From positions 930,001 to 994,000 of the forward strand of contig NZ_CP024621.1 of assembly GCF_009846525.1 (NCBI RefSeq): a stretch of DNA of 64,000 bases, written 5' to 3'. The notes beneath the pieces are model-generated. The model saw only the letters and a program-made list of their open reading frames with translations. It was not told the DNA's origin and searched no databases. The DNA comes from Halomonas meridiana. Its GTDB lineage: Bacteria > Pseudomonadota > Gammaproteobacteria > Pseudomonadales > Halomonadaceae. Below, in pieces: positions 42,568 to 49,363 of this stretch. How positions within the stretch are numbered: the stretch's first letter is position 1; each line of letters starts with the position of its first letter. Both the position numbers and the translations under genes were made by a program.

Positions 42568-42697
42568 GGTGCCTCCGGTGGTAATGATCCGGAGGGCAGG
42601 CGAAAAAGATCGAGGGAGTGGCACGGAAGGGTGGCGTAAAGGTGCGCCGCGGCCATCGCTTGATCCCTACGCCGGTACCCGCGCCGCCATTCATAAA

Positions 42698-42792
42698 GCA
42701 GCGCATTAGCCGGATCAGGTTCAGCGGGACCAGCGCTCGGTAGCTAAAAGCTCACCCTGCGCCATCTCAGCCGGATATCACCGGCACCCCGT
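42698..42792 (-). promoter_or_regulatory. TPP riboswitch (THI element) upstream of tenA-thiC
   Basis: Read on the minus strand: GGGGTGCC at the start, CTGAGA then the core G-C-A-G-G-G-T-G-A-G (usually ACCC-type variant), and CTGAACCTGATCCGGCTAAT at the 3' end, all standard THI-box elements. The aptamer ends about 130 nt before the tenA ATG, leaving room for an expression platform. It turns the operon off when thiamin pyrophosphate is abundant. Confidence 0.95.
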
Positions 42793-42999
42793 CAAGCTGT
42801 TCGTGGGTGGAGTGTAGGAGGCGGGTGGGGGAGATGCAAGGGGGGGATGGTTCGACTTAGGCTTTGCTCGGATATGAGGGAGGGGGTAGAGTTAAGTGAG
42901 GATTTTCCATAATCTCAATGAGCGGGGCAGGCTTATTAAGTTTGTATAGCCTGCCCTATTAAAACCTGTATATATCTTTGGTTTGATTAGGAGAGCTAT

Positions 43000-43188
43000 A
43001 TGCCAATCGTAACCGTCCAGCAATCCCCTGGTAGAACAAAAGAGCAACGTGAGCTCTTGGTAAAGCGGATAACCGAAGCCTTTTCAGAAGCATATGGAAC
43101 AAGCCCTGAGGCAGTCACAATATTTCTACAAGATTTTGACGACGAGCATTGGGCCAAAGGTGGGAAGCTACATTCTGAGCGATCTTGA
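43000..43188 (+). CDS. 4-oxalocrotonate tautomerase family protein
   Basis: 62 residues, the classic monomer length. Catalytic N-terminal Pro (M-P-I-V-T-V), then G-R-T-K-E-Q-R-E-L-L, F-L-Q-D-F and H-W-A-K-G-G-K-L typical of the 4-OT/tautomerase superfamily. The physiological substrate is unknown. TAGGAGAGC precedes the ATG. It is the last chromosomal gene before the integron; the remnant integrase meets its 3' end. Confidence 0.85.
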   Translation: MPIVTVQQSPGRTKEQRELLVKRITEAFSEAYGTSPEAVTIFLQDFDDEHWAKGGKLHSERS

Positions 43189-43189
43189 C

Positions 43190-43660
43190 TTCTTCCATTC
43201 GAGAAAAGTCGATTTCTTTAATACGTTGCTGATATGACTCTGAGGCTCGTAACCCCGAACCTAACATAAGTTTTGCAATTAGAAGCATGGAACCGAACAG
43301 ATGCTCAAACACACCCATGACCTCTTCGTGGGAAAGCACGACAGGTAAGCGCTGAGGGCGCTTAACTCGGCTAAATTGACCAATCTCGCCAAGCGGCTGG
43401 TCCAGCACATGGCGATAAAGGAAGACGATGGCATTGAGTGCTTGATTCTGTGTAGCCGCTGCCACGTGCCTTTCGATTGCCAGATACTCCAAAAATTGCC
43501 GTACTTCATGACCTGTTAGGGTGGCAGGGTGACGTAAATTATTAAACCGAATGTAAAATCGAATCCAGTAACAATAGGTTTTATCGGTGCGTAAGCTATA
43601 GCGCTTGACCCTCATGGTTGCCTTGACGCGTTCCATCAGTTTCATGGGAGAATGCCTCAA
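43190..43660 (-). pseudogene. Integron integrase (IntI), truncated
   Basis: About 157 N-terminal residues of a tyrosine-recombinase integron integrase: R-Y-S-L-R-T-D-K-T-Y-C-Y-W-I-R-F-Y-I-R-F (the core-binding domain), N-A-I-V-F-L-Y-R-H-V-L, and L-S-H-E-E-V near residue 110. The first catalytic Arg is present (G-S-G-L-R-A-S-E), but the frame then runs into antisense of the tautomerase gene and the catalytic half (HxxR, Tyr) is missing. The break lies near 43190. The gene points away from the cassette array, the standard integron arrangement, and must be inactive. Confidence 0.85.
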
Positions 43661-43786
43661 TAATGCTGTTCATAAAAGCAGTGTTATTGAGGCGAGCAAA
43701 ACGCGCAAGCCCGCGAATTTTGGCTACATCGCCAAAATTCTCTTTGCACGCTGTAGAATCAATGAGGTAGATTCAATTTGGTGGCT

Positions 43787-43857
43787 ATGAAACCTCAGTC
43801 ATTGTGATGTCACGTTCATTGAGGTTTCATGGCAGGGCGTATAATCACTGTTAGGGT
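43787..43857 (+). promoter_or_regulatory. attI-like site with hairpin and cassette promoter
   Basis: Perfect 11-bp inverted repeat ATGAAACCTCA / TGAGGTTTCAT (43787-43797, 43820-43830). A consensus -10 TATAAT (43840-43845) lies 5 bp before the recombination point (GTTAGGG from 43850), with TTGAGG (43819-43824) as a -35 at 15 bp, short of optimal. This would be the Pc-type promoter of the array. Confidence 0.55.
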
Positions 43858-43887
43858 TTAAAACAATTGGGTCAATAAGGAGTTTTC

Positions 43888-44388
43888 GTGTCCAGTTTTT
43901 CGATTATAGAGTTAATGACTCTAATGATGTCCGCGATGTCTGCTGTTGCTGTGCTCTATCTCGCAATGCAGGTCTCAATCATCAAAAGAATTTATATGCG
44001 TGAAACACATGCTAACCGTATGGAGAGAACGCTTGAAGCTATGGAGCTCCCGAGTGAAGTTACAAAGACGATGAGCCAGGTTCTTCACCAGCATTACAGA
44101 GGTGATATGCATGCGATATTTGAAGACCCAGAGCTGAGAGCATCTTTGTATTCCACTCTAAATACGCTAGAAAATCTATCCTTTGGGATTTTGTCGGGAA
44201 TATATGACGAAGATGTGGCGTTTGCGCAAATGGGAGGCGCGCTGCCTAGGTTTTACGATATTATTCAGAGATTTGTCTATGAATCAAGAGAAGAGTTCTT
44301 GTCATCTAGTCAGTACATTAAGTTAGAACAATTAGCTCGTATGTGGGCGCATAGGGAGAAAGGCTATTACAAAAGGAGTGCATTATGA
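43888..44388 (+). CDS. Cassette 1, gene A: DUF4760-like membrane protein
   Basis: 166 residues, GTG start with AAGGAG 5 nt upstream. One N-terminal span (residues 8-29), then a helical cytoplasmic domain. The L-N-T-L-E-N-L-S-F-G-I-L-S-G-I-Y-D-E segment near residue 90-110 resembles the DUF4760 pattern. Its stop overlaps the next gene's start (ATGA), so the two are coupled. A two-gene cassette is uncommon, and small membrane pairs of this kind are often defence or toxin-antitoxin modules; no such role is shown. Confidence 0.75.
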   Translation: MSSFSIIELMTLMMSAMSAVAVLYLAMQVSIIKRIYMRETHANRMERTLEAMELPSEVTKTMSQVLHQHYRGDMHAIFEDPELRASLYSTLNTLENLSFGILSGIYDEDVAFAQMGGALPRFYDIIQRFVYESREEFLSSSQYIKLEQLARMWAHREKGYYKRSAL

Positions 44389-44789
44389 GCAAAGAAACTC
44401 CTTTTGAGGTTATTTCAGATTATTGTAATAGCGAGGACAAGAATACGGTTGTAAGAGACTTAGCTTATAGTATTTATAGGCAGCAATTTGAAGACCTTTC
44501 TAAAGATGCAAATGGTGACCAAACCAGCATCGATGCAATTCAAAAAACACTGTTGTCGCAAGGAAATCTGGTTGCGCATGTTAGAACTGCTGAAGATATG
44601 CTGTCCAGACAATTTCAAAGTGAGTTAAAGCCAATACAGTCTAAGGCGACAAAAGACTCTTTTTGGTTTTCCGTAGGTAGTGGCGTAGTGAGTAATATTC
44701 TATATTCTCTGCTCCTAATTATTGTGTTTGTAATTGCAAAAGACCAGCTGTCATCGTGGCTCTCAACCTTAATCGAAACGAAACCCTAA
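44385..44789 (+). CDS. Cassette 1, gene B: tail-anchored membrane protein
   Basis: 134 residues. Soluble helical N-terminus (about 95 residues) and one C-terminal span (I-L-Y-S-L-L-L-I-I-V-F-V-I-A, ~residues 105-122). No family recognised. TAA stop lies inside the attC1 R'' box. Coupled by 4 bp to gene A; the pair brackets the membrane from opposite ends, so a physical complex is plausible. Confidence 0.7.
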   Translation: MSKETPFEVISDYCNSEDKNTVVRDLAYSIYRQQFEDLSKDANGDQTSIDAIQKTLLSQGNLVAHVRTAEDMLSRQFQSELKPIQSKATKDSFWFSVGSGVVSNILYSLLLIIVFVIAKDQLSSWLSTLIETKP

Positions 44790-44867
44790 CAAATGCAGGC
44801 ACGGCGACGCCTTTTCCATTGCGGCTTCGCCTTCATTTCAAAGCCGCGCATGCTGCAGGCGTTAGAC
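44784..44867 (+). other. attC1
   Basis: R'' box CCCTAAC (44784-44790), R' box GTTAGAC (44861-44867), 84 bp, with an imperfect palindrome between (GGCGACGCC and GCGGCTTCGCC segments near the centre). Recombination after G44861. CCCTAAC is the exact complement of the cassette start GTTAGGG. Confidence 0.88.
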
Positions 44868-44877
44868 AAGGAAAGAG

Positions 44878-46157
44878 ATGAAGTACGTAATCTTCTATTC
44901 ATGGCAATCAGATTTGCCCAACAATACTAATCGCGGTTTTATTGAGTCCGTTATTGAAAAGTCTATCAAGAACAGCAATGGAGCTGATCTTTATGATTTA
45001 GAACCAACCATTGATAGGGATACCAAAGATGTGCCTGGTTCGCCAAACATAACTCAAACATTAATTGATAAAATTAAGGCCAGCGATGCTTTTGTTGCAG
45101 ATATTTCCATAGTTACCGGCATATTGAACGAAGATGAACGGCCATCACCCAATCCAAACGTACTATTGGAACTCGGGTATGCGATAGCTCTATTAGGATG
45201 GGATAAAATAATCCTGTTCTGTAATGAACACTATGGAACAGACGAGGACTTGCCCTTTGATATACGCCAGCATAGAAGGATCGGCTATCGCTTGGAACAA
45301 GATGAAAAAAATCCGATGCGCGCAACAATCTAGCAAAGCATTTCGGGTCTCGATTGTCAGAACTGTTAAAAAAAGGGAAGGCTCGTTCTAGAATTAAGTC
45401 CCCGGTATTAGAAGTCTTGTGGAACTATCTAAGTGTCGAAAATTCTGCTGATATTGAATCTGGCGTAGATTCCTGTGAAATAACGCTAAAGAGAGCAACA
45501 GACAACACAGAGGTGGTGGAAAGAATCAAGCAAGAAATCACCTTAGTTAATGAAGCAGATGGGAGCATAGATCCAAAGTGGGATGATAAGAAAGAAAGTT
45601 TCAGAAAACGAGCTGAAGGATTTATCGAGGAACTTTCCGATGAGCAGAAAGGAAACGACTTCTTGGTCAATCGTAATGTCAATAATGTTTGCCCAGTCAC
45701 CCTTACAGTTGATAACGACGGAACTGCATCCGCATCAGATATCAGAGTAGAGATGGAACTACCTGAATGGATATTGGGTGTTGAGAACCTTCCAAAAGAA
45801 CGTGATGTACCAACTAGGCCGAATATGCCAATTCCAACCGCTCCGAAAGCTACTGATGCAATAAGAGGCGCATCAATATTCGGAGGTATATCAAGGATGA
45901 ACCTTGATCTAGATCATGCGGCGTTGCTCCGAGCAAACGTGAATCGCATCTCTGCTTGCTATCTAAAAAATGAGCATACAGTATATTTCTGGGCCGATCG
46001 ACTGCTGCATAAGCATGTAATAACTAATCGGAATGACAGGTTCTATCTTCTTGCTTTATCAAACGCACCAGTTGGTACGCATAAGATTACGGGTAAAGTG
46101 TTTTGCACTGAGCAAGATGACTGGCATGATTTTGAGCTATCTATCAATGTTGTCTAA
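44878..46157 (+). pseudogene. Cassette 2: TIR-like protein split by a -1 frameshift
   Basis: Two overlapping frames. Part 1 (44878-45333, 151 residues): a TIR/SEFIR-like Rossmann domain, Y-V-I-F-Y-S-W-Q-S-D at the start, D-R-D-T-K-D-V-P-G-S, S-D-A-F-V-A-D-I-S and the N-P-N-V-L-L-E-L-G-Y-A segment with the Glu that is catalytic in NAD-cleaving TIR domains. It then runs out after a run of A. Part 2 (frame open from 45306 to 46157) continues without a good start as K-S-D-A-R-N-N-L-A-K-H-F and an unknown C-terminal domain. A -1 slip at A AAA AAU (45306-45312) would join them into about 426 residues, the expected size for this group. Either programmed frameshifting or a disabling single-base deletion. 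AAGGAAAGAG precedes the ATG. Confidence 0.7.
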
Positions 46158-46232
46158 CAAGGCCGTAAACGCGGACGTATTTTTCGTTCGATTTGCTCAC
46201 TACAAATTCGCCGGTTACGGCTGGCGTTAGCC
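46152..46232 (+). other. attC2
   Basis: R'' GTCTAAC (46152-46158), R' GTTAGCC (46226-46232), 81 bp. R'' is the exact complement of GTTAGAC at the end of attC1, as expected for the ends of one cassette. Confidence 0.88.
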
Positions 46233-46264
46233 ATCTTTAAAAATAATATCATCAAGGATATTTT

Positions 46265-46684
46265 ATGAAATATCACGTAAATGCCTGGGGCGGTGATACT
46301 GAAGCTTTCAAAAAAGGTTTTGTCAAAGCTTTAGAGCTCACATTTCAAAGCGAGCACAAGTCTTTGCTTATCAGAATTGGTTTATTAGACAATGCACGAG
46401 GCATCATGATGGATGTTTTGGGCGAAAAATTCACAAAGAAACTCATTAAAGAAAAAGCAATCGACTTCACTTTAGAGGGACGCCGCATCTCTATCAATTT
46501 AGAGGGCGACAGAACCAGGCGTACTGCTTTTAGAAGTGGAGTTATTTTTTGTCCATGGGCAGCACCTGACACATTATTGGATGTAATTCAGGACTATCGA
46601 CAGATTGATATGGTCTATGTGCCTTGGATGGAAAAAGAAAGGGATGACTATATTATCTCTAATCCTGATTCAGTCGAAATCTAG
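46265..46684 (+). CDS. Cassette 3: unknown 139-residue protein
   Basis: No family recognised. Mixed alpha/beta soluble protein with no signal or span; F-C-P-W-A-A-P-D near residue 97-104 and V-P-W-M-E-K-E-R-D near 120 are the only unusual blocks. AAGGA precedes the ATG at 6 nt. It is the whole gene content of a 523-bp cassette and ends 10 bp before attC3. Standard codons, AT-rich. Confidence 0.75.
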   Translation: MKYHVNAWGGDTEAFKKGFVKALELTFQSEHKSLLIRIGLLDNARGIMMDVLGEKFTKKLIKEKAIDFTLEGRRISINLEGDRTRRTAFRSGVIFCPWAAPDTLLDVIQDYRQIDMVYVPWMEKERDDYIISNPDSVEI

Positions 46685-46693
46685 AAATCATAT

Positions 46694-46755
46694 TGCTAAC
46701 AAAACCATCCAGCGGACGCGCCAAAGGCGCGCGCCGCTGATGGTTGGCGTTATGC
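46694..46755 (+). other. attC3
   Basis: R'' TGCTAAC (46694-46700), R' GTTATGC (46749-46755), only 62 bp, with CAGCGGACGCGCC / GGCGCGCGCCGCTG as central palindrome. R'' differs by one base from the complement of the cassette 3 start GTTAGCC. Confidence 0.87.
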
Positions 46756-46792
46756 ATCCGGAAAAATTATTCAATAACTCTGGGGGTTAAGC

Positions 46793-47743
46793 TTGTCTAA
46801 CAAAAAAAGCGTGCAGAACGATTACGATAAGCTATGTTCCCGTGAGGAAGTTATAAAGTGCCCACATATGATGGTGTTACTCGGTTACTTGCATCAGAAA
46901 CACGAGCTTCCTAGGTATGGGTGGCGAAACAATGGACTCCGCTACCACTATACAGATGCTCAAGGTTTGCTTGGTATAATTCAGAATGGTCGTTTGTGGG
47001 CTACCGACATTCGTTTCCTTAATGATCCATCAGAAGGATCATTTCTACCCGAACGACTAATTAGCCTCATGGAATCGAAACCTGGCGGAATAAATAATAC
47101 TGAACGCGAAGTAATTAAAGGATTAAAAGATGCACTTCGAAATCCGAATTCAAATTATTCTAGCTTCTGTACTAGCCTCTCCGCGAACGGAGATCTTCTG
47201 AGTCAATGGCGAGGATATGGTAGCTTCGGTAAAGGTTACGCTGTTGGACTAAGTCTTGAGGGTTTATTACCACATCCACAAGTTGCTTCATATTACGACG
47301 TGATATATGGAGATAATGGTCTCGAAGAAATCGCTTTCGATCTTCTCGATCTGTTTGTATCTTCCGTTAGTAAATGGAAAGATATGATGTTCGATGAATG
47401 GGTGTTCACATTGAGCGTTTTAGCGAAATCCTTTAAAGATCCAAGTTATAGTGAAGAGCAAGAAAGCCGTTTAGTATGCTCCTATTCTGGCGATGACAAT
47501 GATCTTTTTTAGAACGAAAAGCCCCTCCGATTTAGGGCAAGAGGTAGTGATTTAATTCCTTATATTCCATTGTCTTTAAGTTTGCTTAAGGATGGAGAAG
47601 TGCCGAGACTACCCATAAAGCGAATTGTCATTGGCCCTGGAGTTGACTTCGATCGGAATTATATATCAATTAAAGAGCTTCTGAAGGCTCACTCTTACGA
47701 TGACGTGGTTGTGGAAAAATCAAATATTCCTTTTCGGCCATAG
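46793..47743 (+). pseudogene. Cassette 4: DUF2971 protein with in-frame stop
   Basis: 239 residues from a TTG start (GGGGG upstream) to a TAG at 47510-47512, then the same frame stays open for another 77 codons to 47743. Together 317 codons. The N-terminal part has the DUF2971 hallmarks (R-Y-H-Y-T-D-A-Q-G-L-L-G-I-I and F-L-N-D-P-S-E); the part after the TAG holds the family's usual end (P-I-K-R-I-V-I-G-P-G-V-D). DUF2971 proteins occur in defence islands, function not established. The TAG looks like a nonsense mutation; readthrough cannot be excluded. Confidence 0.75.
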
Positions 47744-47857
47744 AGGTAAGCTGATAAGTTGTTTTTTGTAAAATGAAAAGCACCTGAGAGTATTTGGCAT
47801 GCACGCTATTTCAGTAGGTCATTGTATCAAGATTAATACTAGCATTCGCTGGATAAT

Positions 47858-47939
47858 GCATAACAATGCCAGGCAGCGCGACCCATTTTTCGTTGCGCTT
47901 CGCTCCACTACAAATGGTCGCCTGCTGGCGGCGTTGAGG
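47858..47939 (+). other. attC4, probably interrupted by an IS-like element
   Basis: R'' GCATAAC (47858-47864), exact complement of the cassette 4 start GTTATGC, then a strong palindrome (GCGACCATTTG-type arms: GCGACCCATTT / AAATGGTCGC). At the far end the core reads GTTGAGG, which fails GTTRRRY at the last base, and GAGGCTGTAGAAAA from 47936 resembles the inverted-repeat end of IS1182-like elements. So the element seems to have entered the core after GTT. Confidence 0.7.
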
Positions 47940-48101
47940 CTGTAGAAAACCCCTTTGACAGCCAGGTTTTGGCAGGACTGAGAAAACAGACGGAGAGTGG
48001 TCAGCATGCTGCGCTTCAAGGTTTACAACTACGATCAGAACGCCATGGTGGTGATTAACTATAAGGATCAGCTCCAGCCTGGCAAAAGAGAAAGGGCCTG
48101 A
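47936..48101 (+). mobile_element. IS1182-like transposase remnant
   Basis: A reading frame from ATG 48006 begins M-L-R-F-K-V-Y-N-Y-D-Q-N-A-M-V-V-I-N-Y and reaches D-Q-L-Q-P-G, the N-terminus of IS1182-type DDE transposases, then shifts to an unrelated stretch and stops at 48101. The IR-like GAGGCTGTAGAAAA lies 70 bp upstream of the ATG, the right distance for this family. No 3' half or right end is seen. Confidence 0.55.
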
Positions 48102-48860: not shown

Positions 48861-49115
48861 TCAGTAGTGATACCGCAGCTGGGCAACAAGCAAAGCGTCG
48901 TCCGTGACCTTGTAAACGATGCGGTGTTCTTCGTTGATTCGCCGAGACCAGTAACCCGCGAGGCTGTGTTTAAGGGGTTCTGGCTTGCCGACTCCTTCAA
49001 ATGGCTCTCGCTTGATTTCTTTGATTAGCTTGTTGATTCGGTTGAGAATCTTTTTGTCAGTTTTCTGCCAGTACAAATAGTCTTCCCAGGCGTTCTCGGA
49101 AAAGATGAGCTTCAT
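48861..49115 (-). CDS. yoeB: YoeB-family mRNA interferase toxin
   Basis: 84 residues, the standard size. RelE-fold ribosome-dependent RNase: W-E-D-Y-L-Y-W, L-I-K-E-I-K-R-E-P-F-E-G-V-G-K-P-E-P-L-K-H, then G-Y-W-S-R-R-I-N-E-E-H-R-I-V-Y and C-terminal L-R-Y-H-Y with the catalytic Tyr/His. Its start overlaps the antitoxin end by 4 bp. Confidence 0.95.
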   Translation of the reverse strand: MKLIFSENAWEDYLYWQKTDKKILNRINKLIKEIKREPFEGVGKPEPLKHSLAGYWSRRINEEHRIVYKVTDDALLVAQLRYHY

Positions 49116-49363
49116 TCAAGAAGCTCCTTTTCCTGACCGCCCCCTTGCTCCAGCTCGCCAACGGATTCCAGTAAACGGCGGGCGTTCTTGGGCGCGCGCA
49201 GGAGATAGGCTGTCTCTTGCAGTGCTTCGTAGTCTTCGAGAGAGATCATGACCACGGATTGCGCCTTATTGCGGGTGATGATCATAGGAGAGTGGTCTTC
49301 ACAGACCTGCTCCATGGTTTTTGCTAGATTGGTTCTAGCGGCGGTGTAGCTGATGGCATCCAT
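49112..49363 (-). CDS. yefM: YefM/Phd-family antitoxin
   Basis: 83 residues. N-terminal Phd/YefM DNA-binding domain: M-D-A-I-S-Y-T-A-A-R-T-N-L-A-K and I-T-R-N-K-A-Q-S-V-V-M-I-S-L-E-D-Y; the C-terminal ~30 residues (G-E-L-E-Q-G-G-G-Q) wrap the toxin. It precedes and overlaps yoeB and autoregulates the pair through the palindromic operator just upstream. Such pairs often stabilise integrons. Confidence 0.94.
   Translation of the reverse strand: MDAISYTAARTNLAKTMEQVCEDHSPMIITRNKAQSVVMISLEDYEALQETAYLLRAPKNARRLLESVGELEQGGGQEKELLE

Follow-up and report, generated by a model that had tools for sequence, protein, structure and literature searches.

An inactivated chromosomal integron in Halomonas meridiana, very probably capped by an IS1182-like insertion sequence of an attC-favouring group

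Why does a short array of gene cassettes in the chromosome of Halomonas meridiana lie beside half an integrase gene, and what sets its right-hand end? The question is raised by a stretch of 64,000 nucleotides (contig NZ_CP024621.1, positions 930,001 to 994,000; here called the window), for which the original prediction, made from the letters alone, proposed a sedentary integron with a dead integrase gene (intI), four attC sites and a frozen array whose cargo had been kept. The locus is very probably an inactivated sedentary chromosomal integron whose right end is capped by the remnant of an IS1182-like insertion sequence (IS), a member of a group that favours attC sites. The coordinates of all features are collected in Table 1.

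The array itself is well defined. A strict scan for RYYYAAC and GTTRRRY boxes missed all four attC sites, and a looser scan followed by covariance models was used. Model R1 was built from 35 attC sites of relatives, none of them from the window, and a second model, R2, from 30, omitting five R1 training sites that adjoin the IS. At E ≤ 10, R1 matched exactly four places in the 64 kb (E 1.1e-12 to 1.5e-5) and R2 gave the same four, which are the sites that had been proposed. At the left end, the intI remnant scores 164 bits against the TIGR02249 cut-off of 265, and a profile search found no IntI above the family cut-off anywhere in the genome, bearing out the predicted loss of the catalytic half. 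As in sedentary integrons, the attI region adjoins a divergently read intI and the location is chromosomal (a single 3.86-Mb contig) and conserved in the genus, tenA being the neighbour of intI in 12 of the 20 intI loci retrieved. Judged by the intI remnant, the nearest named relatives belong to Vreelandella/Halomonas. The functional integrase of a sedentary integron is absent here; because the catalytic half is missing and no IntI in the genome exceeds the cut-off, the locus is classed as an inactivated integron.

The right end is where the first description of the array needs revision: its four attC sites stand, but the boundary is an insertion at the fourth site that had been overlooked. 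Only GTT (47933-47935) of the attC4 R' box is integron sequence; the next four bases, GAGG, belong to the end of an insertion sequence. In BLAST comparisons the segment 47936-48084 was met again at the attC ends of other loci, among them L051 from Halomonas halocynthiae, and also in L050 from Chromohalobacter. In L051 the matching segment is the left end of an element carrying a 493-amino-acid transposase open reading frame (ORF); in other copies the open frame extends to as many as 534-547 codons, and in L182 the protein counted from the first start codon has 527 amino acids. The transposase matches DDE_Tnp_1_6 and DUF772 in Pfam and scores just under the cut-off of 270 for NF033551 (IS1182), at 255.8 bits (E 8.7e-76) in L051 and 254.9 bits (E 1.6e-75) in L182, and for these reasons the element is named IS1182-like. 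Full-length relatives read GAGGCTGTAGAAAAAC...GTTTTTCTACAGCCTC, are about 1826 bp long, have terminal inverted repeats and form junctions of the type GCGTT/IS/GTTRRRY. The window keeps the left end only; neither the remainder of the element nor anything once beyond it was found there. Since only the first 149 bp remain, attC4 is read as the target of the IS and the sequence beyond it as lost.

How the element chooses its targets can be judged from its relatives in the Halomonadaceae. With up to three places per genome scored, DNA of the left end is present in 76 of 275 family genomes and in nine of 24 genera. From these, 80 copies were taken, namely the listed places whose match starts at base 1 or 2 of the query, as far as E 1.3e-32; the window's own copy, 24 lower-ranked such places and later-starting matches lie outside this sample. 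An R1 attC (E ≤ 0.1) ends exactly on the IS junction in 64 of the 80. Because five of the 35 R1 training sites adjoined the IS, the search was also made with R2, which places 59 of the 80 at an attC, 53 in exact register and six within six bases. Clustering by upstream sequence leaves 78 distinct contexts, 63 of them with an attC, and all abutting attC sites share one orientation relative to the IS. The bases before the element are GCGTT in 70 copies and CGTT in 77 (six IS starts were set by hand from search coordinates). Both ends were found in 34 copies, 19 of them full length, and GTT follows the right end in 33 of the 34. Target register, orientation and duplication of GTT are thus observed directly in relatives, together with one empty site: a G058 copy, not at an attC, has an uninterrupted counterpart with a single GTT in G044 and G069 (91-92% identity across the junction, with no gap). 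Twelve copies (L250, L253, L254, L255, L262, L266, L276, L279, L280, L281, L285 and L291) are internally shortened to about 320-780 bp, keep both ends with GTT after the right one, and resemble miniature inverted-repeat transposable elements.

Several points weigh against this account. No attC was called at the junction in 13 of the 80 copies, and in three others the call is weak (E 1.5-3.4). The sole clean empty site is no attC but a chromosomal GCGTTAGG site. When 14 joined flank pairs were compared with 82 genomes (about three places scored each), no empty attC site was among the matches listed, of which only the G058 chromosomal site matched more than 13 bases across the junction on both sides; an earlier look at loci from relatives gave none either. 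The transposase lies just below the NCBI family cut-off in both ORFs scored, and the window's own copy is a 149-bp remnant whose transposition is read from its relatives. Finally, selection against insertions into genes could inflate the share of copies at attC sites, and this is the main rival. In its full form it holds that the element needs only the short core GCGTTR and that copies between cassettes, being harmless, are the ones that survive. All four non-attC copies with a readable right end (L244, L245, L266 and L292) do sit at CGTT/IS/GTT, and two copies in genome G516 (L345 and L350) sit at CGTT/GTT without an attC call. Yet the core is common: the window holds 102 GCGTT(A/G) sites on its two strands, four of them in attC sites, so that the core sequence alone would put only a few per cent of the insertions into attC sites and is judged too frequent to explain the bias. 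Core sites in neutral DNA outside attC sites are presumably many, and still 63 of the 78 contexts are attC sites. On balance, we regard survival at a bare core as rather unlikely to be the whole explanation.

A different agent has also to be weighed. The integron integrase, instead of the element's own transposase, might carry the IS into attC as a cassette-like circle with an end that mimics the core. The insertion does lie at the GTT core used by the integrase, and of 74 left ends, which begin with GAGG in 44 copies, GAGC in 24 and GAGA in four, those with GAGC make a perfect GTTRRRY. This proposal is very unlikely: the same GTT duplication arises where there is no attC, as in G058 with its empty counterparts, no attC was called at the right end of the IS among the 80 copies, and the element encodes a DDE transposase of its own and is bounded by inverted ends. 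Several arrays end with GTTGAGG or GTTGAGC, which would suit the notion that GTTGAGG at the array end is the right half of an ancestral attI, a fixed boundary beside which the IS homology is incidental. We dropped that notion as extremely improbable, since full-length copies of the 1.8-kb IS stand behind the motif at other loci and the same junction occurs within arrays and outside integrons.

The same junctions were found in homologues elsewhere in the Gammaproteobacteria. A transposase homologue (E ≤ 1e-60) is present in 18 of 369 class genomes, and IS ends were sought in 22 of 30 loci, made up of 28 class-genome loci and two plasmids. Fifteen copies, neither cut by a contig end nor second in a tandem, had a readable left end. 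An attC called at E ≤ 0.1 stands in register in nine of these (L328, L329, L330, L333, L335, L336, L339, L353 and L354, at identities of 43-75%), two more have one at E 0.14-0.21 (L327 and L332), and in L338, L345, L350 and L351 the R1 model gave none in register; some misses are expected outside the family because the model was trained on Halomonadaceae sites. CGTT precedes the homologue in all 15, and GTT follows in all 11 copies in which the right end is seen. The habit of settling at attC junctions is therefore old and wide, and no local accident. The two plasmid homologues share 40-43% identity; their flanks were scanned with R1 and their IS ends were not located. In L333, also from G516, two left ends follow each other in tandem, the copies being separated by one GTT.

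Taken together, the observations suggest the following course of events. The cassettes would have been captured at attI by an intI once present here, as the matching cassette ends indicate. The intI gene would then have lost its catalytic half, its place being taken by a tautomerase-gene segment that resembles an import by homologous recombination in this strain. The R' core of the fourth attC would have received an IS1182-like element by transposition, and the later decay of that element would have removed whatever followed. Judging from the relatives, the element would insert behind GTT in the R' core (GCGTT^RRR), duplicate GTT and keep one orientation, leaving the R'', L'' and L' boxes and GTT of the upstream attC in place along with the GTTRRRY start of the next cassette; the upstream attC should thereby stay usable. 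Most likely it is the R' side of attC that the transposase recognises, and it would itself read both core sequence and hairpin. The hairpin would be a natural target, since inverted repeats are the reported target of IS1272, an element placed in the IS1182 family. A bolder version, which we offer tentatively, is that an old, Gammaproteobacteria-wide IS1182-like group specialises on integrons: it would read the folded attC, cut at the integrase's core, rebuild that core (GTT/GAGC fits GTTRRRY) and leave the upstream attC recombinable, so that the IS heads a composite cassette movable by integrases.

Other mobile elements are drawn to attC sites. The IS1111-attC group of the IS110 family (ISKpn4, ISPst6 and ISPa21) seeks attC (PMC11187229, PMC11616780). 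Like it, the present element specialises on one end of the integron attC, by the counts given above for R1 and R2, and it is not a member: IS1111-attC elements have an RNA-guided DEDD transposase, whereas only DDE-type Pfam and NCBIfam matches were found here, in an IS1182-like element that has inverted ends and duplicates 3 bp, GTT. A preference for attC sites is likewise seen in group IIC-attC introns, but they are retroelements that insert mostly at TTGT/T (PMC7923331, PMC9229058) and the present element is a DNA transposon; apart from the thiamine pyrophosphate (TPP) riboswitch, the window gave no Rfam match at gathering score, group II intron RNA included. IS1272 shares the transposase family by name and targets inverted repeats in a structure-dependent way (PMC5678879). 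Unlike IS1272, which replaces the target stem-loop and makes no target duplication, the element described here preserves the attC stem and duplicates GTT. A survey of Shewanella reports having detected no IS that interrupts attC sites, and the excerpts of three IS1182 papers (PMC9137128, PMC9374279, PMC12950786) do not report attC targeting. No report of an IS1182-type attC specialist was found among the papers listed in searches of an open-access library, ISfinder not included. While the integron itself is one more decayed array in a well-known picture, the capping IS is apparently a third, mechanistically unrelated mobile element settled on attC, after IS1111-attC and the group IIC-attC introns. 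Its insertion at the integrase's core would spare hairpin and cassette genes alike. It would also explain why several arrays in the family end in GTTGAGG or GTTGAGC, its end may serve as a marker for lost array ends, and it supplies a DDE transposase for probing structure-guided target choice.

When the bottom strands of the attC sites were folded as single-stranded DNA, attC1, attC3 and attC4 formed a long hairpin in the minimum-energy fold, but attC2 did so only in the centroid. Against shuffled sequence, attC3 alone folds clearly better (z -4.7, with -1.3, -1.7 and -2.0 for the other three). The start and end cores of cassettes 1 to 4 are GTTAGGG/CCCTAAC, GTTAGAC/GTCTAAC, GTTAGCC/TGCTAAC and GTTATGC/GCATAAC, complementary at 7/7, 7/7, 6/7 and 7/7 positions, exactly the counts first given. 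Complementary ends are expected of cassettes that once were circles. Among neighbouring attC pairs in relatives, 42 of 54 match at 7/7 and 50 at 6/7 or better, with a mean of 3.3 exact matches after shuffling (the comparison took in 65 of 97 attC matches, from nine of 23 loci). The four poorer pairs score 4, 3, 5 and 2 of 7, the last being poorly placed because its attC R' box does not read GTT. The self-matching ends are therefore more frequent than chance, as had been argued, yet they are an ordinary trait of cassettes; they point to capture by an integrase and are not unusual. The same genome carries further attC sites. Five form a cluster at 2.22 Mb (G000:C1:2222034-2225436, L145), which also includes a DUF2971 gene (L145:4129-5109) and a gene of the phage-integrase family (L145:7259-7894). 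Three other places, 1530421-1531687 (L146), 1638905-1638976 (L147) and 1873917-1873999 (L148), have one or a few sites each.

Loss of intI is common in the genus. An IntI scoring above the family cut-off occurs in 19 of 82 genus genomes (three of the 19, namely L018, L024 and L027, contain internal stops), whereas 42 match the N-terminal intI piece of the window at E ≤ 1e-20; it is this difference that leads us to judge loss common, as in Xanthomonas. There, chromosomal integrons have been inactivated by lineage-specific loss of intI, through deletion or stop codons (PMC12444791, PMC2426708), and in an early survey nearly one third of intI genes were pseudogenes (PMC2426708). In each of the two genera the integron occupies one main chromosomal locus, with lineage-specific loss of intI and small leftover arrays of mostly unknown genes. 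Unlike in Xanthomonas, the locus here adjoins tenA. Furthermore, the same intI lesions in Xanthomonas usually come with identical arrays (earlier work cited in PMC12444791 or PMC2426708), whereas G059 has the identical truncated intI/tautomerase junction beside an array that shares no cassette with the window, from which it appears that junction and array do not travel together. The comparison with related genomes that had been recommended thus yielded IntI proteins over the cut-off, but the DNA of cassettes 1 to 4 was absent from all 31 compared loci, G059 included.

Recombination at the locus is suggested by segment identities that conflict. The thiC segment is 94% identical to L131, 93% to L130 and 85% to L128 (from G059), while the 3' part of the intI remnant is 80% identical to L131 and 87% to L128. 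Its 5' part is 99% identical to L131, over 94 bases only, where the match breaks off, 77% to L128, and 98% over 239 bases to L130, which lacks the 3' part. This pattern suggests that homologous recombination transferred the intI/tautomerase segment in one of the lineages. A frozen array is plausible for this strain, but in G059 a different array stands beside the same junction.

Table 1. Features of the integron locus and its flanks, with positions counted from the first base of the window.
Feature	Position	Strand	Basis
TPP riboswitch ahead of tenA-thiC, left chromosomal flank	42647..42801	-	Rfam RF00059, 65.1 bits
4-oxalocrotonate-tautomerase-like gene in place of intI 3' half	43000..43188	+	PF01361, E 3.6e-16
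intI remnant, N-terminal half, catalytic half missing	43190..43660	-	TIGR02249 positions 2-154 of 315
attI region, core G^TTAGGG at 43850-43856	43661..43856	+	Core read from sequence
Cassette 1, first gene, DUF4760 protein	43888..44388	+	PF15956, E 2.4e-15
Cassette 1, second gene, small protein, no family match in libraries searched	44385..44789	+	ORF
attC1	44784-44867	+	R1 64.5 bits, E 1.1e-12; R2 E 4e-13
Cassette 2, TIR-domain part (CAP12/Pycsar-like), probable 5' portion of a gene split by a frameshift	44878..45333	+	PF10137, E 2.4e-5
Cassette 2, downstream ORF in another frame, perhaps 3' part of the TIR gene	45354..46157	+	ORF
attC2	46152-46232	+	R1 51.5 bits, E 1.1e-9
Cassette 3, orphan gene, 139 aa	46265..46684	+	Own genome only, 1/250 family genomes
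attC3	46694-46755	+	R1 33.6 bits, E 1.5e-5
Cassette 4, DUF2971 gene, in-frame stop at 47510-47512	46793..47743	+	PF11185 on 46793-47512
attC4, R' box formed by GTT (47933-47935) and first IS bases	47858-47939	+	R1 54.5 bits, E 2.3e-10
Left-end remnant of IS1182-like insertion sequence at attC4	47936..48084	+	87% identity over 149 bp to L051 IS end
Ltp-type lipoprotein gene, right flank; same flank in L113	48412..48789	+	PF07553

The cargo of the array is partly decayed, as judged from a stop in the cassette 4 gene and a probable frameshift in cassette 2, and the view that it has been kept was too strong. Downstream of the stop in cassette 4, similarity to the C-terminal ends of DUF2971 proteins continues in the piece 47513-47743, which matches two homologues there at E 2.7e-13 and 3.8e-8. 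The PF10137 match of the TIR part in cassette 2 lies just above its cut-off. Plasmid homologues of this part, annotated as TIR domain-containing proteins, have 356 and 372 codons, compared with which the 151-amino-acid ORF is probably cut by a frameshift. The frameshift is not proven, because the ORF downstream does not significantly resemble the C-terminal end of either TIR homologue; nor has it a homologue in plasmids or, its own genome aside, in the 369 class genomes. All plasmid relatives of the TIR and DUF2971 genes are below 60% identity, and the first gene of cassette 1 has no match in plasmids.

The flanks place the locus in its chromosomal setting. The genes on the left, matched between genomes, are those we take to be tenA and thiC. 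The attI region is 98% identical to that of L130 and 95-96% to those of L181 and L093. Proteins encoded by the tautomerase-like gene are 97-98% identical in G001, G059, G075 and G077 and 80% identical in G041, and in all five genomes the neighbouring TPP region matches too. In Salinisphaera, a tautomerase gene with 77% relatedness to the one described here (L086:8835-9020) is found close to intI, on its cassette side. The idea this gave, that the tautomerase gene had been an integron cassette, was set aside, there being no model attC beside the gene in the window. On the right, a toxin-antitoxin pair of the YoeB/YefM type (PF06769 and PF02604) stands beside the array at 48861-49363, and its DNA is 97% identical in L130.

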